A stretch of DNA of 64,000 nucleotides from an uncultured Aquimarina sp. (GTDB lineage Bacteria > Bacteroidota > Bacteroidia > Flavobacteriales > Flavobacteriaceae). Below, in pieces: positions 23,300-60,319 of the stretch; position 1 is the first letter of the stretch, and every line of letters begins with the position of its first letter. The notes below the pieces were generated by a model that ran no database searches, had not been told where the DNA came from, and worked only from the letters and a program-made list of their open reading frames with translations. A program made the translations under genes and the position numbers. The stretch lies in contig CANMLG010000031.1 of the NCBI GenBank assembly GCA_947498765.1, positions 40,009 through 104,008 on the forward strand. The letters are read 5' to 3'.

Positions 23300-24331
23300 T
23301 TATTTTTTAAACTTTAATACTTCCGACCTCCCTTTTTTGAAAATTTTATTACTATTTCCTTTACCTTTTCTTAAAGCTTTTTGCTCTTCAAAGGGGAGGG
23401 CTGCAATTTCCTTACAAGCATCTGAACAACAATTATTCATAGCTTGCTTGCATTCTTCGCATTGAATAAATAGCAAATGACATGCTTCATTTGCACAATT
23501 TTCATGTGTATCACAAGCTTTACCACATTGATGACAATTTGAAATAATATCTTCAGAAATACGCTCACCCCTTCGGTGGTCAAAAACAAAATTTTTACCT
23601 AAAAATTTATTCTCCAATTTTTCCGAAGTTATTTGGCGTGCATATTCGATAATACCTCCTTCCAATTGATATACTTGCTCAAAACCTTTATGCTTGTAAT
23701 AGGCACTTGCTTTTTCACATCGAATACCTCCTGTACAATACATAACAAGTTTTTTGTCTTTTTTATGATCCTTAAGGTCTTCTTCAATAATATCTAATGA
23801 ATCGCGAAATGTATCTACATCTGGAGTTACGGCATTTTTGAAATGCCCAATTTCACTTTCGTAATGGTTTCGCATGTCTACTAAAACGGTATCCGGATCC
23901 TCTATTAACTCATTAAAAGCTTTTGCATCTACATGAATCCCTTTATTGGTTACATCAAAAGTATTATCATCCAAACCATCGGCAACAATTTTATTTCTAA
24001 CTTTTACTTTTAGTTTTAGAAATGACATATTATCCTGCTCACGAGCAATGTTTAATCGTACGTTTTCTAAAAAAGAAATGCTATCTAAATGCGTTTTAAA
24101 TTTATTAAAATTAGGTGCTGGCACTGATAATTGTGCATTAATACCCTCTGTAGCTACATAAATACGCCCTAAAACATCTAATTCATTCCAGGTTAAAAAA
24201 AGATGATCTCGTAACACTTGAGGGTTACCAATATTATGGTATTGATAAAAGGAAATGGTTATGCGCTCGGTACCGGCCTCTTGAATAAGAGTAGCTCTTT
24301 CGGCAGCGCTTAATTTATTGTACAGTTGCAT
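23300..24331 (-). CDS. trhO: rhodanese-type tRNA uridine hydroxylase (TrhO/YceA, UPF0176)
   Basis: 'LFLTWNELDVLGRIYVATEGINAQLS', 'DMRNHYESEIGHFKNA', 'VMYCTGGIRCEKASAYYKHKGFEQVYQLEGGIIEY', Cys-rich C-terminus. Confidence 0.93.
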   Translation of the reverse strand: MQLYNKLSAAERATLIQEAGTERITISFYQYHNIGNPQVLRDHLFLTWNELDVLGRIYVATEGINAQLSVPAPNFNKFKTHLDSISFLENVRLNIAREQDNMSFLKLKVKVRNKIVADGLDDNTFDVTNKGIHVDAKAFNELIEDPDTVLVDMRNHYESEIGHFKNAVTPDVDTFRDSLDIIEEDLKDHKKDKKLVMYCTGGIRCEKASAYYKHKGFEQVYQLEGGIIEYARQITSEKLENKFLGKNFVFDHRRGERISEDIISNCHQCGKACDTHENCANEACHLLFIQCEECKQAMNNCCSDACKEIAALPFEEQKALRKGKGNSNKIFKKGRSEVLKFKK

Positions 24332-24386
24332 GCTATACTAATTTATTAAGATTAAAAATGCAAATATACATGTTATTTAAAAAACA

Positions 24387-24422
24387 AAAAACCAGTGTAT
24401 AACAAGGTACACACTGGTTTTA
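24387..24422. terminator. hairpin terminator downstream of modular lipoprotein A
   Basis: aaaaccagtgt ... acactggtttt. Confidence 0.75.
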
Positions 24423-24466
24423 AAAAGTAAATCACTACTTATTTAAACTATACTAATTCAAATCGT

Positions 24467-26029
24467 TTACTGCACTGTAATTGTTTCTTTTAAAGTTACT
24501 CCTCCTGAACATATATTAGCAGAAGTTACTTGTGCTTCGATAGTGTGCTGACCTGGCTCAAGTGTAACTCGTATATTACTAAAATCTCCTAGCACTCTAG
24601 TTATAGTATTTAAAGGATTTTTGAGTATATCTTCTTCTGAATAAACAGCTCCATCAATGGTCCAAACTATTGTAGTTAAATTCTTATCTCTGATATCAGA
24701 TCCTCCTCTTGGCTCTATCACTAATTGTATATTTTTAGGTCCATTCCCTGTGCTTCTAAAACTTGTTCTTAAAAACAAATCATTACAAGTTAATTGTACT
24801 GGTGGAGCTGAAGGTGTAGGTGGCGTTTCTGTAACTGGTTGTGCTGGAGTTACTGGCGCTACAGGTGCAGCTGGCTCTTCCTCAACTGGTGTTACTGGCG
24901 CTACAGGAGTAGCTTCATTTTCAAATACTACTTCTCCTTTTAATACCACGCCTTCGGCACATGCACTTGGTGTAGTTACTTTTACTTCTACTGTATTTAA
25001 TCCATCTTTAAACTGCGTAAAAGTAAATAAAGAAGTATTTGTTCCGGGCGATTGACCTAATTCTTCTCTTGTAAATACTTTTCCATTAATAGTCCATTCC
25101 ACTACAGTTTCATTAACCGTGTTTCTAAAGAAATCTCTTGGCTTAATTTCTAATATCGCTCTATTACCTCTTTTTTCAAGTTTAGTTATCCCTAATTCTA
25201 AATCATCACAAGAGGTTTCTGTCTCTGATGTAGGCTCTTCTTCTTCCTTAGATTCTTCTTCCTCTTTTTCTAATTCTTCTTCCTCTTCAACTTCTTCAGC
25301 TGGTACTTCTTCTATTTTTTGATCCGAAATAGTTACTGCTAAATTTGCATCAACAACTGCGGTTACACTTAATTGTTTTCCTTCACATGATTCTGAACTT
25401 GCAACAACTTTTATATCATAACTACCCGCTTCGTCAAATCGGTATACTGTAATATTATTTAATACGTTTCCAGAACCAAAAGCTTGTCTATCTTCGTTTG
25501 AAAGCGCTTCGCCATTTAAAAACCATTTGATAGCGGCTACGTCTGCTCCCTTAACTTGCACTGGAACTGACACTAAACCTGACGCATTTGCATTTAATCC
25601 TACAATTGGCGAAAACTCGATAGTCTCACAGCCTTTAGTTGCTGCTTCTTCCAACTCTAAACTATCAATAGTTAAACTTGTACAAATACTTTCTACTACA
25701 CAACTACTCCCATTTTTTGGTATTGCTACAAAACAAACTTCAAAAGTTCCATTTTCTGTAAATGTATTTTGAAATAATGAATTTGTAGCTCCTTCTACAA
25801 CCTGACCATTAATAGACCATGTGTAATCTAAATTTAAAAATTTAGCATTACTTGGTGTAAATGCATAAATTACAGATTGCTTATCTTCACTTGCTTTAAT
25901 TTCTGTTGTGTTTACCTGCATGGCGTTAATTGCTAAGCAATCTTCGGCAGATAACTCTTGTTCACATGATGTTAAGCCCAAAAGCAACATCAAAAATGAA
26001 ATTCCAAATAAAAAAATGTTCTTTTTCAT
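24467..26029 (-). CDS. modular surface lipoprotein A (PKD-like modules separated by acidic and V/T/P-rich linkers)
   Basis: Lipobox 'LLGLTSC' after MKKNIFLFGISFLML; 'EEVPAEEVEEEEELEKEEEESKEEEE' linker; repeated 'VxWTINGxxxxxEEL...C.xGVxLK' modules. The start is placed at MKKN because a promoter-like box lies inside the longer track ORF. Confidence 0.85.
   Translation of the reverse strand: MKKNIFLFGISFLMLLLGLTSCEQELSAEDCLAINAMQVNTTEIKASEDKQSVIYAFTPSNAKFLNLDYTWSINGQVVEGATNSLFQNTFTENGTFEVCFVAIPKNGSSCVVESICTSLTIDSLELEEAATKGCETIEFSPIVGLNANASGLVSVPVQVKGADVAAIKWFLNGEALSNEDRQAFGSGNVLNNITVYRFDEAGSYDIKVVASSESCEGKQLSVTAVVDANLAVTISDQKIEEVPAEEVEEEEELEKEEEESKEEEEPTSETETSCDDLELGITKLEKRGNRAILEIKPRDFFRNTVNETVVEWTINGKVFTREELGQSPGTNTSLFTFTQFKDGLNTVEVKVTTPSACAEGVVLKGEVVFENEATPVAPVTPVEEEPAAPVAPVTPAQPVTETPPTPSAPPVQLTCNDLFLRTSFRSTGNGPKNIQLVIEPRGGSDIRDKNLTTIVWTIDGAVYSEEDILKNPLNTITRVLGDFSNIRVTLEPGQHTIEAQVTSANICSGGVTLKETITVQ
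25646..26029. repeat. 384-bp direct repeat copy 1 (5' end of lipoprotein A)
   Basis: Encodes 128 aa that differ at 7 positions from the product of 27134-27517. Confidence 0.92.
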
Positions 26030-26112
26030 AATTTTAGTTTCTAAATTTAATTTTAAATTTTCTGTTAGTATATACACAACACCTAATAAGCAACTTACCC
26101 TATTTTTTTTTA

Positions 26113-26140
26113 CAAAAATAAAAATGTGCCTATGCGCCAA
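26113..26140 (-). promoter_or_regulatory. putative promoter of lipoprotein A gene: TTG-N17-TATTTTTG
   Basis: Minus strand TTG (26140-26138), 17 nt, TATTTTTG (26120-26113), matching the Flavobacterium-type TTG-N17+-TAnnTTTG pattern. Confidence 0.55.
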
Positions 26141-26217
26141 TGCACACACCCATTTAACACTCTCTTTGCAAATACTAACTGCCTAGGCTTTTCTATTCAT
26201 TGCTATTATTTTACATA

Positions 26218-26254
26218 AAAAAGCCCTGATAAAAATTTAATATCAGGGCTTTTA
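26218..26254. terminator. hairpin terminator downstream of modular lipoprotein B
   Basis: aaaagccctgata ... tatcagggctttt perfect stem. Confidence 0.8.
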
Positions 26255-26296
26255 TTAAAATATTTATTATTTCAACGTTATCAACATAACATTAAA

Positions 26297-27517
26297 TTAA
26301 TCTACCGTAATTGTTGTAGACAATACTCTTCCTTCAGAACATAAATCTGGAGAGTTAATTCTTGCTTCTATAGTATAGGTCCCTGGATTTTCTAAAAAAT
26401 TTATTCTTGTAAAATCACCAAGTGCGCTTGCTATTGGATTACGCCCATTATTAGCTAATTCTTCATTAGAAAGTATTACTCCATTAACTGTCCATGTTAT
26501 TGCTAATGCATCCCCTCTAGTTACACTAACTAAAGATATGGGCTCAAGAGCTACTACAAATCTTGCTTGTCCATTAAAATCACTTCTTTGTCTAGCTGTA
26601 ATTACAACATCACTACAATCTTGCACTGCGGGTGTTCCTTGTCCCACAGGCACTTCTACTACTGGCTCTGTTGGTGTTACTGGTGTTGTTGGCTCTTCAA
26701 CTACTGGCTCTGCAGGAGTTGTTGGCGCTACTGGAGCAGCAGGAACTTCTACTTCAGGAAGCGTAATGCTAGTTTCAATATTAACTCCAGTATCACATAC
26801 ACCTGGTACAGTTGCAAAAACTTTAAAAGTATGCACTCCTGGTGCTAAATTTGAAAAAGTAACTAAACTAAAGTCATTAAATCGATCATCATCAAGTTCA
26901 CTGATCTCATCTTGTGTTAACTCTTTTCCGTCAACAGTCCATACATATACTGACTGTGATAGATGACTAAACGTGCTAATATTCCCTTTTCTTTGTGGAA
27001 TTTGAACTATAGTTGTACGACTACTAAATCTTATTGCCTCTAATGTTAAATCATCACAAGTCAATTCCGACTCTGAAGTAGTCTCTTCTTCTGATTCTTC
27101 AGATCCTTCCTCCTCTTCAACTTCCACAGCTACTTCTTCTAATTCTAAACTATCAATAGTTAAGCTAGTACAAATACTTTCTACTACACAACTACTCCCT
27201 TTTTTTGGTATCGCTACAAAACAAACTTCAAAAGTTCCATTTTCTGTAAATGTATTTTGAAATAAAGAATTTGTTACTCCTTCTACAACCTGACCATTAA
27301 TAGACCATGTGTAATCTAAATTTAAAAATTTAGCATTACTTGGTGTAAATGCATAAATTACAGATTGCTTATCATCACCTGATTTAATTTCTGTTGTGTT
27401 CACCTGCATAGCGTTAATTGCTAAGCAATCCTCTGCAGACAACTCTTGTTCACATGATGTTAAGCCTAAAAGCAACATCAAAAATGAAATTCCGAGTAAA
27501 AAAATGTTCTTGTTCAT
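26297..27517 (-). CDS. modular surface lipoprotein B (tandem paralog of lipoprotein A)
   Basis: N-terminal 128 aa about 95% identical to lipoprotein A; same acidic linker, V/T/P linker and C-terminal module architecture. Confidence 0.87.
   Translation of the reverse strand: MNKNIFLLGISFLMLLLGLTSCEQELSAEDCLAINAMQVNTTEIKSGDDKQSVIYAFTPSNAKFLNLDYTWSINGQVVEGVTNSLFQNTFTENGTFEVCFVAIPKKGSSCVVESICTSLTIDSLELEEVAVEVEEEEGSEESEEETTSESELTCDDLTLEAIRFSSRTTIVQIPQRKGNISTFSHLSQSVYVWTVDGKELTQDEISELDDDRFNDFSLVTFSNLAPGVHTFKVFATVPGVCDTGVNIETSITLPEVEVPAAPVAPTTPAEPVVEEPTTPVTPTEPVVEVPVGQGTPAVQDCSDVVITARQRSDFNGQARFVVALEPISLVSVTRGDALAITWTVNGVILSNEELANNGRNPIASALGDFTRINFLENPGTYTIEARINSPDLCSEGRVLSTTITVD
27134..27517. repeat. 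384-bp direct repeat copy 2 (5' end of lipoprotein B)
   Basis: See copy 1 at 25646-26029. Confidence 0.92.
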
Positions 27518-27625
27518 AATTTGGGTATTTAATTTTTTATAGTTAACAATTAGACAACCCTTGAAAGAAAATTCACCCTATGCTTTTAACATTTTTTTAA
27601 CATTTTAAATATTTCAAAAACTCTT

Positions 27626-27656
27626 TTTGTCCTACCATAATCGATAGCTAAATTTG
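27626..27656 (+). promoter_or_regulatory. putative recA promoter: TTTG-N19-TAAATTTG
   Basis: TTTG at 27626-27629, 19-nt spacer, TAAATTTG at 27649-27656; matches the Bacteroidota -33/-7 consensus exactly. Confidence 0.72.
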
Positions 27657-27697
27657 TATTTTAGCCCTGTTTTGAAACTAATTAGATACAAAGTCTT

Positions 27698-28717
27698 ATG
27701 AGCGCTGATAAAGAGAAAGATGCTAAATTAAAAGCCTTAGAATTAACCCTTGCAAAGCTTGATAAAGCCTACGGTAAAGGAGCTGTAATGAAAATGGGAG
27801 ATGCTGCAATTGTTGAAGTAGATACTATTTCTACAGGTTCTTTAGGACTAGACCTTGCTTTGGGAGTAGGTGGATTACCACGTGGTCGAGTAATAGAAAT
27901 TTTTGGTCCTGAATCATCAGGTAAAACTACATTAACATTACACGCTATTGCCGAAGCCCAAAAAACAGGTGGTATTGCTGCTTTTATTGATGCTGAGCAT
28001 GCCTTTGATCGCTTTTATGCACAAAAATTAGGTGTTGATATTGAAAATTTAGTGATTTCGCAACCTGATAATGGGGAACAAGCACTTGAAATTACAGAAA
28101 ACCTAATTAGATCTGGCGCTATTGATATTGTTGTTATTGACTCTGTTGCTGCCTTAACGCCAAAAAGTGAAATTGAGGGCGAAATGGGAGACTCTAAAAT
28201 GGGTTTACACGCCCGATTAATGTCACAAGCACTTCGTAAATTAACGTCAACTATTAACAAAACCAACTGTACTGTTATTTTCATTAATCAATTGCGTGAA
28301 AAAATTGGAGTAATGTTCGGTAATCCTGAAACTACTACTGGTGGTAATGCCTTAAAATTTTATGCTTCTGTCCGCTTAGATATTCGCCGTTCTACTCAAA
28401 TAAAAGATAGTAACGGAGAGGTCAAAGGAAACAAAACTCGAGTTAAGGTGGTTAAAAACAAAGTGGCTCCACCTTTCCGTACTGCCGAGTTTGATATTAT
28501 GTATGGGGAAGGCGTATCAAAAGTAGGCGAAATTATTGATATAGGTGTAGATTATGAAATTGTCAAAAAAAGCGGTTCATGGTTTAGCTACATGGATTCG
28601 AAACTAGGACAAGGTAGAGATGCCGTAAAAAAATTACTTTTAGACAACCCAGAATTAATGGAAGAACTAGAAGAAAAAATTGTTACTGCTATTAAATTAG
28701 CTAAAGAAGAGGCTTAA
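27698..28717 (+). CDS. recA: recombinase RecA
   Basis: '[20 protein letters not shown]', 'IDAEHAFD', '[21 protein letters not shown]', '[36 protein letters not shown]'. Confidence 0.99.
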
Positions 28718-52489: not shown

Positions 52490-52918
52490 ATGAAAAACAC
52501 TATTTTAAACCCGATAAATTTTATTATTGCACTCTTTTTAGTATTGTCTTCATGTGAAAAAAAAGATGATTTTTCCGAAGTAGACTCTATTACTTTTAAT
52601 GAGATGAATGTAGCCTCAATAGCCATTAAAAAAAATAAAGAATCGGCACTTTATGCTTTTACTCCAAGTAATGTCGATTATTTAAATTTAGATTACAAAT
52701 GGTATGTAAACGGAGAATTACAATTGAATACCCCTAGCATAAAATCATTATTTCAATACACCTTTACCAAAAATGGAAATTTTACTATTTGTTTTGAACC
52801 TTCTAAAAACGAAAGTGACAGCGGTGAACTACATAGAATATGTACAGAGTTGAATTTTGAAAATTTTAAGAATTTTGAAAATAGTGCTATAACTAATGCC
52901 AACACTGTTACCGACTGA
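52490..52918 (+). CDS. small lipoprotein, truncated third paralog of lipoproteins A/B
   Basis: Lipobox 'LVLSSC'; 'ALYAFTPSNVDYLNLDYKWYVNGEL...SLFQYTFTKNGNFTICFEP' matches 'VIYAFTPSNAKFLNLDYTWSINGQV...SLFQNTFTENGTFEVCFVA'. Confidence 0.78.
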   Translation: MKNTILNPINFIIALFLVLSSCEKKDDFSEVDSITFNEMNVASIAIKKNKESALYAFTPSNVDYLNLDYKWYVNGELQLNTPSIKSLFQYTFTKNGNFTICFEPSKNESDSGELHRICTELNFENFKNFENSAITNANTVTD

Positions 52919-54996: not shown

Positions 54997-56913
54997 TTAA
55001 TTTTCTGCTCCAGCATACCCAGAGTTTTGTTTTAATCTTGAATTTAAATCTCTTTCTTGTTGCGGAATTGGTAAACGGTACATATGAGGTTGAAAATTAA
55101 GTCCTGGTATTTCGGGGTTGGTTGCATTCCCGACAACATTAAAAATCAAACCATCTGGAAACTGTCCCGTTCGAGCTCCAAAAATTGAAGGTGGTGCCAA
55201 TGCTATATTTGACACTACTTCTTCCAGTACTCCATTTCTTACCAAATCATCACGCCTATGCCCTTCATAACAAAGTTCTTTTCTGCGCTCTCTTAAAATA
55301 GCGGCTATAGCGTCTCTTTCCGATACTATATTTGTCATATCAACATCAACCGCTAAACCTGCTGTTACTTTAATTGTTGGATCAGCTCTATCCTTGTTAT
55401 TTCCATTCAAGGTCATTCTTAATTCTTCGTCCGTTACAATTCTGTGTACATCAGGATTTATATTCATACGGCTAATATCACCTGGTGTGACACCTCCTCT
55501 TTCATTAAAATCATCTAAGGCAAATGCGCGCCTACGCACTATGTTCACAAATTCCATAGCCTCTGCCAAATCACCTTCCATACCTACTATAGCTTCGGCT
55601 TGCATTAATAATACATCGGCATACCTTAAGTAAGGAAAATCAAAATCTCGGTCACCTACGTTATTGGCATTTGCCGGTAAATCCCTAATATATTTATAGG
55701 TTGACCAAGCACCTATGCGTTCATTTTTTCCAATATCATTAATATCATTAGTTCTATTTACATCTCTAACATTAAAATTGGATACATTAACTAAAAAGCG
55801 TTGATCATTGATCGGCAATGGATATTTAATACCGAAAACCTGAGCAAAATTAGTTGTATCATCTATATCAAAACCATCAAAATAACTTAGAACAAATTCA
55901 TATTGTGTTGATCGTGTAAAAAACGATCCATTAGGCGGACCTGTAAACACCCCAAAAGTATCCCCTAAACTACTTCCGTCTCCTGCTCCATTGCTAACAA
56001 AACCTACACTAAAAATCATTTCGGTATTGCTACTTTCGCTAGCTGGCTGAAATATGTCTTTATAATTTTTCATTAATGAGTATTGCCCACTAACAATTAC
56101 CTCAGAAAATAATCCAGAAGCCTTTGCGTATAATTCTTTTGCTGTATAATTTTCACTAGCCTCTGATAAATTAGCTAGACCTATTTGCTTAGGAAAGTTA
56201 AAACCTTCTTTTATGATATCGTTTTTAATGAACCCTGCAATTTGAAGGTATACCTTACCTAAAAGGGCTTTTGCCGCTAAATTTGATGCCACTGATGCTC
56301 TTCCTAACATAGGATCTGGTAAGTTTTCAATTCCAAAAAGAAGATCTTCTTCAATGGCCTTATATACTTCAGTTGGCGTAGCATTGGTTTTAGGACTTAA
56401 ATCAACATCATTAATATCACTTATAAAATCAGTTTCTAATAATAGTACTGGACGTTCAAATGCTTTTACCAAATTGAAATATAATACCGCCCTTAAAAAA
56501 CGCGCTTGCGATATGGAAGACATAAATTCATCTGCCTCCAACTCTCCAGAATTAAATTTCTGATTTAATAAACCAACACTTCTATTTACAGTAACTATAC
56601 CCTCATAATGGGCACGCCACATCCTTAGGTAATCAATATTTTCGGGTCTAATATTATTAATACGAATTGAAGAGGGATTAAATCGTGGTATAGAAAAAAC
56701 ATCAACTCCAACATCTCCCCAAATAAAAGGATAACCCGAAGCATCAAATACAAATTGTGATCGTAAAGAACTATAAGCTCCTCTTAAAATTAGTTCTGAA
56801 GTTAGATCACTAGTGTCATTTACCGATGTATTTTTCTCTTCTAAATCTCCACACCCGAATAGGGTAAACAAAAATAAAAAACACCCTATTGCAATCGTTT
56901 TTAATTTGTTCAT
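54997..56913 (-). CDS. RagB/SusD family nutrient uptake outer membrane lipoprotein
   Basis: Lipobox 'LFTLFGC'; 'SQARFLRAVLYFNLVKAFERPVLL', 'YLRYADVLLMQAEAIVG', 'ILRERRKELCYEGHRRDDLVRNG'. Internal start MNKLKT chosen. Confidence 0.93.
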   Translation of the reverse strand: MNKLKTIAIGCFLFLFTLFGCGDLEEKNTSVNDTSDLTSELILRGAYSSLRSQFVFDASGYPFIWGDVGVDVFSIPRFNPSSIRINNIRPENIDYLRMWRAHYEGIVTVNRSVGLLNQKFNSGELEADEFMSSISQARFLRAVLYFNLVKAFERPVLLLETDFISDINDVDLSPKTNATPTEVYKAIEEDLLFGIENLPDPMLGRASVASNLAAKALLGKVYLQIAGFIKNDIIKEGFNFPKQIGLANLSEASENYTAKELYAKASGLFSEVIVSGQYSLMKNYKDIFQPASESSNTEMIFSVGFVSNGAGDGSSLGDTFGVFTGPPNGSFFTRSTQYEFVLSYFDGFDIDDTTNFAQVFGIKYPLPINDQRFLVNVSNFNVRDVNRTNDINDIGKNERIGAWSTYKYIRDLPANANNVGDRDFDFPYLRYADVLLMQAEAIVGMEGDLAEAMEFVNIVRRRAFALDDFNERGGVTPGDISRMNINPDVHRIVTDEELRMTLNGNNKDRADPTIKVTAGLAVDVDMTNIVSERDAIAAILRERRKELCYEGHRRDDLVRNGVLEEVVSNIALAPPSIFGARTGQFPDGLIFNVVGNATNPEIPGLNFQPHMYRLPIPQQERDLNSRLKQNSGYAGAEN

Positions 56914-56941
56914 ATTTTTAGTATGCATTTTATATATATTT

Positions 56942-59900
56942 TTAAAAAGTTGCCTTAACTCCAAACCTAAATGATCGCGCTCTGGGGTAGGCGTCAAAAT
57001 CTATTCCAGGGGCCAAGGCATTATTCCCTACACTTACATCTGGATCATAGCCCGAATAGTTACTCCAAACGTAAATATTATCTATGGCTCCATATATTCT
57101 TAATTGGCTTAATGACAAGGATTTTACTAATTTCGAATTCAAACTATACCCTAATGAAATGTTTGCTAAACGCAAATAAGATCCATCTTCCACATAAGTG
57201 TCATCTGACACAATGTTATTAGAGCCTTGAACATCAATTAACCCATTAATACTAGGCACATTTGTGTTTATGTTTGAAGGAGAAAATCTATCGTTTATAA
57301 TGGCTAACTTATTATTATTAGGCAGGTGGCTACGCGTTCCTAAAAATCTATTTTTATTATAAATATCGTTTCCGTAAGACCAATTCATTACAAATGAAAA
57401 ATCGAAATTTTTATAGTTAAATGTATTAGTCAATCCACCAAAATGATCAGCTTGAGTCCGCGCTATAATAGTACGGTCATTCTCATTATCTACAACTCCA
57501 TCACCATCTTGATCTTTATACTTACGTAAACCTGGTCTGTAGCTAGTTACTCCACTAATTCGGGCAACACCTGGCTTTAGTGTGAATGAAGAGGAACTTG
57601 TATCACCATTTTGAACACGTGCCGCGTTACGCACACTGGCAATATCTGCATCAGAATTTGCATTTGCGGTACCTCCTTGCAAATACAAACTGGCTGCTTC
57701 GGCATCGGTTAACCCATCAAATTCAACAAAATCACTATAACGGTATATTCCATCGGATTGATACCCAAAATAGGTCCCAATTTCTTCCCCAGGTCTAATT
57801 AATAAATCTTGATTTACACGTTGCTCAAATGGAGCATTTAATATAAATTGATCATTATTACTTCCTAAATTTTCAATCTTATTTTTACTAAATGTGATAT
57901 TAAAGTTCGTATTCCACGAAAAATCTTTTGCTTTTAGTACTGTAGCATTTAGTGAAAGCTCCAATCCTTTGTTTCTAATTTCGCCCAAATTGGTAAAAAA
58001 TCCAGAAACACGTTGCCCCGACACATTGATAAATAACCCTAAATCGGATGAAGTTGGAAGAAAATACAACAAATCACGTGTTGCTTTTTCAAAATAACTC
58101 GCTTCAATATTTACCCTGTTATTAAATAAGCCTATTTGAGTTCCTAAATCAATAGATTCTGTAGTTTCCCAAGTAAGCGCCCTATTACTTAATCGAGTAA
58201 CTACGCCTCCATTTACTGGATTAATGCTTACTGCCTCTCGAGCTATTCCAAAAGGAATACGATCATTACCCGTAATACCATAACTTGCTTTAAATTCTAA
58301 ATTACTTACTACTGGTGCTAATGGTTTTAAAAACTCTTCTTTAGATGCTATCCATTTCCCTCCAAGTGCATAAAAATATCCCGTTTGGCTTCCTGGTAAA
58401 AATCGAGATGACTTATCTACTCTTACGGTAGAGTTCAAAAAGTATTTCCATTTATAATTATATCTAGCTCTAAAAAAACCAGACTTTAATGTACTGTTAT
58501 TTATTCCACTCGATGTTTGATCTGGTGTACCCTCTCCTAAATTATCCACATTCACCGAATTTGTACTAAATTCAATAGTCCTTGAACCTCTAAACTCAAA
58601 AGTATTAAACCATTGGTTAGCACCTAATTCTGTCGTAAAATTATGTTGTCCAATCTTAAAATCGTATTGTAGTTTATTTTCATTTACTAGAGTAAAACCT
58701 TGATTATTACTTGTAAAAGCAATTCCGTTAGAAAATCTTCCAAAACCAAAATCCCTATTAAAAAAAGCTTTTCCACTATTAATAAAAAAGCGTCCTCCTA
58801 GACTAGTTGTTAACTTTAATTTAGGTAAAATTTCATAAGTCAACCGTGTATTAAATCTACCACTTGTAGCAGTTTGCACATTTGTATTGTCCGAAATTAA
58901 TCGATTAGGGTTAGGTACAATTCTACCATCAATTTCTTCAATCAATCCAGATTCTTCACTAATTACTATATTAATATCTTCTCCACTATCTCTATCTCTA
59001 AACCTGATATCTGTTCTTCCTTGTACGGGTTGAGCTATGGCTAAATTTGTAATAATACCACTACGTTGTGTCCCTGTACTTCCTTCACTTGCAGCCGTAA
59101 CAACTCCATTTCGTTTTACAAATGCTGCATTTAAGTCTATATCAAATTTTAATTTGTCATTTACTGTACTCGAGCTTCTTAGGTTTACAGCATGTCTTTC
59201 AAAATCGGATTGCTTGATTACTCCTTCTTGATTAGTATAACTATAATTACCTGCATACGTAAATTTATCAGTACCTCCTTGTACATTTAAAGAATACTTT
59301 CTTAACTGTGCATCTCTAAAAATTTGATCTCTCCAATCATTTACCACCAACCTAGGATCATCAAACCTAAGTGTATTACCAGCATTGTCTCTATAAATTA
59401 ATGCAGTAGCATTAAAATTACCTCTATCATTTAGCACATATGGATTAGCATCATTATAAAAATTTATATATTCCTGCGGACTCAAAAAATCAACATGCCT
59501 TCCTATACGTTGTATACCTACTATAGATTCAAAACTCAGTTTAGGTTTATCCTTTGTACCCGACTTTGTTGTAATTAAAACCACTCCATTAGCTCCACGT
59601 GTTCCGTATACAGCTGTTGCCGAAGCATCTTTTAATATGGTAATTGACTCAATTGTAGAAGGATCTAAATCAGCCAACGGACTTGAAAAACTATTTCCTA
59701 AACCTACACTGGTACCAATAGAGTTACCACCCCCTTCTGTTATAATAGGCTGACCATCTATTACATATAAAGGATCCGCGTTAGCTAAAAGCGATGTTGT
59801 TCCTCTTACTCTAACCTTCAACCCTGATCCTGGTCCTCCTTCAGAAGAAATTACTTGTACTCCAGGAGCTTTCGCCTGTAATGCCTGCTCAAATGAAACA

Positions 59901-60319
59901 GCTTGTACTTTATCAATATCTTCTGATTTTAATGACACAACAGCCCCTGTTAATTCTTCTTTTTTCGAAGTACCATAACCAATTACAATTACCTCATCTA
60001 ATTGATTTACATCTTCAATTAAATTGACATTGATGTTTTTATTTTCTTTTACTTTTACTTCTAGATTTTCGTAACCTATATAGGAAAACTTTAAAATATC
60101 ACCTTGGTTTGCATTAATGAGATATTGGCCATCAAAATCAGTTACCACTCCTTTATTTGTTCCTTTAATAATAATTGAAACTCCTGGCAAGGGAATATCA
60201 TCGCTAGAAACTACTCCCTGAATTGTTATTGATTGTGCCTGGACAATACCATAACTCAACAACAAAAATAGTAACCCTAAAAATCGAGATTCCTTTGTAC
60301 TATGTAGACTTTTAATCAT
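56942..60319 (-). CDS. SusC/RagA family TonB-linked outer membrane protein
   Basis: CarboxypepD-like N-terminus 'GVVSSDDIPLPGVSIIIKGTNKGVVTDFDGQY', 'DEVIVIGYGTSKKEELTGAV', 'LYVIDGQPI', 'DASATAVYGTRGANGVVLITTKSG'. Confidence 0.96.
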   Translation of the reverse strand: MIKSLHSTKESRFLGLLFLLLSYGIVQAQSITIQGVVSSDDIPLPGVSIIIKGTNKGVVTDFDGQYLINANQGDILKFSYIGYENLEVKVKENKNINVNLIEDVNQLDEVIVIGYGTSKKEELTGAVVSLKSEDIDKVQAVSFEQALQAKAPGVQVISSEGGPGSGLKVRVRGTTSLLANADPLYVIDGQPIITEGGGNSIGTSVGLGNSFSSPLADLDPSTIESITILKDASATAVYGTRGANGVVLITTKSGTKDKPKLSFESIVGIQRIGRHVDFLSPQEYINFYNDANPYVLNDRGNFNATALIYRDNAGNTLRFDDPRLVVNDWRDQIFRDAQLRKYSLNVQGGTDKFTYAGNYSYTNQEGVIKQSDFERHAVNLRSSSTVNDKLKFDIDLNAAFVKRNGVVTAASEGSTGTQRSGIITNLAIAQPVQGRTDIRFRDRDSGEDINIVISEESGLIEEIDGRIVPNPNRLISDNTNVQTATSGRFNTRLTYEILPKLKLTTSLGGRFFINSGKAFFNRDFGFGRFSNGIAFTSNNQGFTLVNENKLQYDFKIGQHNFTTELGANQWFNTFEFRGSRTIEFSTNSVNVDNLGEGTPDQTSSGINNSTLKSGFFRARYNYKWKYFLNSTVRVDKSSRFLPGSQTGYFYALGGKWIASKEEFLKPLAPVVSNLEFKASYGITGNDRIPFGIAREAVSINPVNGGVVTRLSNRALTWETTESIDLGTQIGLFNNRVNIEASYFEKATRDLLYFLPTSSDLGLFINVSGQRVSGFFTNLGEIRNKGLELSLNATVLKAKDFSWNTNFNITFSKNKIENLGSNNDQFILNAPFEQRVNQDLLIRPGEEIGTYFGYQSDGIYRYSDFVEFDGLTDAEAASLYLQGGTANANSDADIASVRNAARVQNGDTSSSSFTLKPGVARISGVTSYRPGLRKYKDQDGDGVVDNENDRTIIARTQADHFGGLTNTFNYKNFDFSFVMNWSYGNDIYNKNRFLGTRSHLPNNNKLAIINDRFSPSNINTNVPSINGLIDVQGSNNIVSDDTYVEDGSYLRLANISLGYSLNSKLVKSLSLSQLRIYGAIDNIYVWSNYSGYDPDVSVGNNALAPGIDFDAYPRARSFRFGVKATF

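Follow-up and report, generated by a model that had tools for sequence, protein, structure and literature searches.

Gene conversion of the N-terminal unit and exchange of C-terminal modules in a tandem lipoprotein pair of Aquimarina

The window, that is, the whole 64,000-nt stretch of DNA analysed here, comes from a 3.84 Mb genome of the Aquimarina group, as judged by relatives of the same genus that were matched to Aquimarina records. It contains two lipoprotein genes, B and A, which lie in tandem on the minus strand between recA and trhO. The same order (recA-B-A-trhO) was found unchanged in a sister species, uncultured Aquimarina 3-767-J (hereafter G005). The features of the locus are as follows:

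27698..28717, plus strand: recA, a housekeeping gene oriented divergently to trhO and conserved border of the locus
26297..27517, minus strand: lipoprotein B, 406 aa (orthologue G005_B, 414 aa)
24467..26029, minus strand: lipoprotein A, 520 aa, stop codon within the coordinates (orthologue G005_A, 515 aa, likewise between B and trhO)
24388..24421, minus strand: terminator-like hairpin of 14 pairs with a T tail, 3' of A, parting A from trhO
23300..24331, minus strand: trhO-type tRNA hydroxylase with UPF0176_N, Rhodanese and Rhodanese_C domains, the conserved border on the opposite side

The strand of both genes and the coordinates given for them in a preliminary description of this DNA (B at 26297-27517, the end of A at 24467) were confirmed, except that an ORF of 560 aa with a GTG start proved to be an over-extension; lipoprotein A starts at the ATG at 26029 (520 aa). 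A T-tailed hairpin lies beyond the end of A and another can be read by eye 3' of B, so the two genes are probably separate transcription units. A promoter scan gave a result that did not beat shuffled sequences, and a possible flavobacterial -7 box (TATTTTTG) is located 91 nt upstream of A. The genes downstream of the pair form a constant series, trhO-ricT-gldH.

The position of the pair is itself variable in content. Of 67 genomes compared, 62 have recA and trhO close together on one contig; the gap is at most 700 bp in 32 of these 62, which is insufficient for a gene of the A/B type, and in the others it is larger. Six larger gaps were read, and because several contain unrelated genes, the recA-trhO interval (24332-27697 of the window; L177-L182) takes cargo, and its content varies within Aquimarina. 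By eye, the content of other gaps includes an RHS-like protein, a fibronectin-type lipoprotein or further genes.

Lipoprotein A is built from a signal peptide, an N-terminal unit (N-unit), module X, an acidic linker, module M1, a P/V/T-rich linker and module M2, and lipoprotein B from a signal peptide, N-unit, acidic linker, M1, P/V/T-rich linker and M2. The parts, all on the minus strand, are listed below:

25646..26029, minus strand: N-unit of A (aa 1-128), with lipoprotein signal peptide, lipobox LTSC and PKD_3-like domain
25349..25630, minus strand: module X of A (aa 134-227, 94 aa), without counterpart in B
25211..25348, minus strand: E-rich, acidic linker of A (aa 228-273), containing the left edge of the interspecies tract
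24923..25210, minus strand: module M1 of A (aa 274-369), DNA 100% identical to A. agarivorans HQM9
24788..24922, minus strand: P/V/T-rich linker of A (aa 370-414)
24470..24787, minus strand: module M2 of A (aa 415-520), DNA 98.7% identical to A. agarivorans HQM9
24476..25212, minus strand: tract transferred between species (nt 818-1554 of A), with 5 of 737 nt differing from A. agarivorans HQM9
27134..27517, minus strand: N-unit of B (aa 1-128), conversion partner of the N-unit of A
27059..27133, minus strand: acidic linker of B (aa 129-153)
26756..27058, minus strand: module M1 of B (aa 154-254), with 25% identity to its positional counterpart in G005_B
26618..26755, minus strand: P/V/T-rich linker of B (aa 255-300)
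26300..26617, minus strand: module M2 of B (aa 301-406), sharing 92-93% identity with each of the two modules of G005_B

The preliminary description had reported a nearly identical 128-aa N-terminal unit followed by strongly diverged sequence, and both observations hold: the N-units of A and B differ at 7 positions (94.5% identity) and share a 300-nt stretch of DNA that is 95% identical, and the modules of the two proteins are 19-35% identical. Uniform divergence along the full length, which had been named as a pattern that would speak against this picture, was checked and rejected. The further claim that both genes keep the same layout was incorrect, as A has the extra module X between its N-unit and acidic linker.

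When examined by hmmscan, residues 55-103 of the N-unit of A match PKD_3 (PF16820) with 28.1 bits, above the cut-off of 26.3, and the N-unit of B reaches 24.6 bits, slightly under this cut-off. In contrast to the hmmscan match, a PF16820 search of the six-frame translated genome gave no match, and the membership of the N-unit in PKD_3 is thus marginal. PKD_3 fits the N-unit of A by score, but the Pfam entry lacks the architecture and the recombination of A and B. A signal peptide and lipobox were read by eye in A (MKKNIFLFGISFLMLLLGLTS followed by C), are nearly identical in B and similar in the relatives, and bear out the lipid anchoring (lipobox LTSC) proposed earlier. A and B are very probably outer-membrane lipoproteins, and they are likely to be exposed at the cell surface. 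The surface export motif of Capnocytophaga lipoproteins is K-(D/E)2 or Q-A-(D/E)2 (PMC5080379), and we searched near positions +2 to +6 for these or for an SDDFE-like signal. The mature N-terminus of A and B (CEQELSAED) is acidic without a strict match to the published motifs; CEKEE in the relative G079 fits, and CEKKDDF in a solitary paralogue elsewhere in the window fits one place further on. The latter gene is as follows:

52490..52918, plus strand: solitary paralogue, N-unit alone (142 aa), 40-44% identical to the N-units of A and B

By eye, this paralogue adjoins a carboxymuconolactone-decarboxylase-like gene. It has orthologues in G005, A. agarivorans HQM9 (G058) and G007; the orthologue in A. 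agarilytica directly adjoins recA and bears one module.

The module motif described earlier is real: an alignment of 11 modules shows no variation at Cys1, Trp42, Gly46, Cys93 and Gly96. Moreover, a Cys at position 1 and a second Cys at about position 81-101 are present in all 31 modules compared, which suggests that the pair forms a disulfide closing the domain. A structural model of the M2 module of A (pLDDT 88.9, pTM 0.81) shows a beta-sandwich that contains a short helical insert, and the top Foldseek matches to this model are PKD and Fn3-type domains. None of these matches is strong (lowest E about 0.01; among them are Bacteroides SGBP-B and the starch-binding protein Sas6), so the model supports an assignment of the modules to PKD/Ig-like beta-sandwiches at the level of fold class alone. 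PKD/Ig-like strands also appear in a low-confidence model of module X; a fold search with the N-unit and X together returned Ig domains generally and was set aside because of its low-confidence model (pLDDT 71, pTM 0.51). A sequence search of the PDB with the modules and N-unit gave weak, chance-like matches.

With respect to family assignment, one of the 11 distal modules matched PKD_3 (PF16820) at E = 0.082 and none scored above the cut-off, and A and B matched no carbohydrate-binding family. No paper on this module family was found in the literature. Among the genomes searched, the family was seen only in Aquimarina, with none in 200 other genomes drawn from the Flavobacteriaceae. The distal modules are a new family. 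The earlier remark that no named family could be recognised is right for the modules; the N-unit of A passes the Pfam cut-off of PKD_3. Two other identities were considered and rejected: a phage protein, with no match in PHROGs and nothing related to the modules in IMG/VR, and a known anti-phage defence protein, with no match in PADLOC-DB.

Comparison with G005 separates the history of the N-unit from that of its surroundings. In the upstream 160 nt, A groups with A and B with B (43 sites for orthology against 1), and the upstream regions of A and B are only about 50% alike. Within the N-unit, 21 sites support grouping within each genome against 3, and of these 21 sites 17 fall on third codon positions. 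AU tests of the N-unit reject the clades A0+A5 (p = 8e-7) and B0+B5 (p = 3e-6), and the two N-units of A. agarivorans pair together as well. For A against B, dS amounts to 0.20 in the window genome and 0.19 in G005, compared with 0.52-0.56 between the species. The conversion tract covers about codons 3-126. Because the upstream region follows orthology and the N-unit follows the genome, A and B are an old duplicate pair in which gene conversion has homogenised the N-unit of each genome. Of the two origins that the preliminary description had offered for the 5' unit, gene conversion is favoured by the AU tests, and recent duplication is contradicted by the syntenic orthologues in G005.

The C-terminal part of A has a different history. 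Nucleotides 818-1554 of A differ from A. agarivorans HQM9 at 5 of 737 positions (P about 2e-42 at the trhO rate), whereas the flanks of this tract are about 79-85% identical, the N-unit of A 78.9% and trhO 85.5%. Against the same strain, dS is 0.00 for M1 and 0.03 for M2, compared with 1.08 for trhO, 1.19 for recA and 1.41 for the N-unit of A. We also compared 538 overlapping 700-nt segments, sampled from parts of the window, with the A. agarivorans HQM9 genome: the best segment at A is 99.3% identical, against a background mean of 78.7% (sd 5.5) and a maximum of 91.6% elsewhere. On the left the tract begins within the acidic linker, and on the right it ends some three codons short of the stop. 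Judged from this DNA comparison, the 737-nt tract is an interspecies transfer. G005 is the closer relative of the window genome in recA, trhO and ricT, and M1 of A. agarivorans lies at the G000-G005 distance (dS 0.28) rather than at its own (about 1.1), so A. agarivorans appears more likely to be the recipient.

Besides this tract, single modules have been replaced. Between A and G005_A, amino acid identity is 91% in X and 89% in M1 and 48% in M2; the divergence in M2 starts in the P/V/T-rich linker, and the 3' flank is back to normal. Between B and G005_B, M2 is 93% identical and M1 25% identical, and the nearest relative of M1 of B is a module of A. agarilytica (46%). Within G005_B, M1 and M2 are 97% identical to each other and are preceded by similar linkers. 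The C-terminal modules thus turn over as whole units, which are replaced, copied or transferred between species. Support in the module tree is too low to order the older exchanges. One genome per species was compared, and the changes seen are those between species.

Homologous modules have dN/dS values of 0.11-0.22 and the diverged M2 pair a value of 0.43, compared with 0.01-0.04 in the flanking genes. Selection on the modules is relaxed or milder purifying selection, with no diversifying selection at the codon level, and with dN/dS below 1 the variety arises from swapping. The 'diversifying' modules of the preliminary description are accordingly diverse in outcome but not through fast codon evolution (module dN/dS 0.11-0.43). 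In the relatives with a single gene (G071, G079 and G086), the last module is conserved, the N-unit is more variable and synonymous sites are near saturation, and swapping therefore characterises the clade with two genes. A module search of the genome assembly found no silent cassettes: the four full-scoring modules all belong to A or B, and the one further match is module X of A. Antigenic variation from silent cassettes was rejected, as the assembly has no donor cassettes outside A and B.

Remnants and relatives were also seen in other strains. In A. agarivorans HQM9 (L066, 1296-3537), the B-position gene is cut down to the N-unit and an X-type module, has a deletion within the N-unit and is followed by a transposase-like gene. 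In A. agarilytica ZC1, a lone orphan module without signal peptide or N-unit is located near recA (L029, 212-532) and is probably a remnant of the B-position gene; the same strain encodes a 620-aa lipoprotein with one A/B-family module beside genes for an ECF sigma factor, FecR and a TonB-dependent receptor (L030, 549-6625).

We consider it reasonably probable that A and B are best explained overall as a constant base with exchangeable heads, and we hold the recombination history itself, as described above, with high confidence. The base would consist of the lipidated PKD_3-like N-unit, plus module X in A, and the low-complexity acidic and P/V/T-rich linkers would bear two distal PKD/Ig-like modules with one invariant Cys pair each. 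Homologous recombination has opposite effects on these two parts: gene conversion keeps the bases of A and B alike within each genome, and the heads are replaced via copying within the gene and exchange with other Aquimarina species, the edges falling in linkers or at the end of the gene. The heads may bind an outside partner, such as a polysaccharide from algae or a matrix, a neighbouring cell, or a ligand of a phage or predator, and swapping would then alter the specificity with a common anchor and export signal kept. That the heads serve binding or adhesion at all is, in our judgement, an even bet, and pressure for biotic recognition or evasion is put forward tentatively, as a possible rather than a probable driver.

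It is conceivable, though on balance improbable, that the recombination is real but functionless, the repetitive linkers and duplicated base recombining often and the loosely constrained stalks tolerating any Ig-like module. The absence of codon-level diversifying selection agrees with such a neutral mosaic, as does the variability of the recA-trhO spot, where 32 of 62 genomes have no room for the genes and others have unrelated genes. However, the Cys pair and the open frame are intact in the modules following every exchange, purifying selection acts on homologous modules (dN/dS 0.11-0.22), and a tract that starts in a linker and stops at the gene end looks non-random.

Somewhat less probable still is that A and B are accessory lipoproteins of nutrient uptake, whose modules bind the substrate of a TonB-dependent receptor and whose module type tracks the substrate range. 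The A/B-family module beside the receptor set in A. agarilytica, the apparently similar gene sets adjoining other tandem PKD-type lipoproteins of Aquimarina, and the weak structural matches to SGBP-B and Sas6 would fit this explanation, but A and B are flanked by recA and trhO-ricT-gldH with no such receptor adjoining, and they lack a match to any carbohydrate-binding family. The weakest account, and a very improbable one, is a recent tandem duplication with a young N-unit and very fast divergence of the modules: the genes are adjacent and their N-units 94.5% identical, but it is refuted by synteny and discordant trees, as both genes occur in G005 in the same order, each with an orthologous upstream region and with orthologous modules, the AU tests reject the orthologous N-unit clades expected under it, and the modules evolve neither at neutral nor at faster rates (dN/dS below 1), so that it could be rescued only if each species had separately duplicated the gene and separately captured matching upstream DNA.

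Among known systems, phase-variable or antigenically variable surface lipoproteins of pathogens, such as Mycoplasma Vsp and Borrelia VlsE, have a conserved lipidated 5' end and a 3' part varied through recombination. A and B resemble them in having a constant lipidated 5' end and a variable 3' part made by recombination, but differ in that no silent cassettes were found in the genome and the change was seen between species. In archaea, VARTIG (VARiable Thermococcales IG) is a hypervariable Ig-domain module of a multi-Ig surface-type protein at a fixed site; its distal Ig domain with conserved cysteines swaps between species and the remainder follows the species, variable companion genes, some with Ig domains, lie downstream, and there is no recombination within the locus (PMC8416519). 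A and B are like VARTIG in that a distal Ig-type domain has been exchanged in place between species (the 737-nt tract of A. agarivorans). Unlike VARTIG, they have constant downstream genes (trhO-ricT-gldH) instead of unique companion combinations, and conversion within the locus occurs alongside the interspecies exchange. VARTIG is archaeal, and the likeness is one of behaviour, with no sequence relation claimed. By this analogy VARTIG is the closest analogue of A and B; as they share one defining feature of VARTIG and lack another, they are not filed as a member. A rather unlikely extension would make the locus a bacterial counterpart of VARTIG, with heads traded across species for recognition or evasion (phage, predator, self/non-self) and the anchor kept uniform by conversion.

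Homogenising and diversifying recombination act here on one gene pair, which makes a compact and well-bounded case with edges in low-complexity linkers, and a pair of modules has crossed species nearly unchanged. VARTIG is the archaeal precedent for the interspecies shuffling of Ig-fold surface proteins, and its function is not known (PMC8416519). A bacterial example in named strains (A. agarivorans HQM9 and A. agarilytica ZC1) would make the purpose of such shuffling directly testable.

Other Aquimarina genomes (L110, L111, L112 and L113) contain tandem lipoproteins with 4-5 Cys-starting PKD-type modules beside sigma/FecR/TonB receptor-like genes. They resemble A and B in the lipobox, the arrays of Cys-starting Ig-like modules and the tandem arrangement of the genes, but they occupy a different locus, carry 4-5 modules without long linkers, and have no clear N-unit of the A/B type; by profile they are weakly related to A and B (E about 1e-3 to 1e-7). 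Within the window, a SusD-like and SusC-like pair with two lipoproteins downstream was read by eye at 54997-60319 on the minus strand, and looks like an ordinary nutrient-uptake locus.
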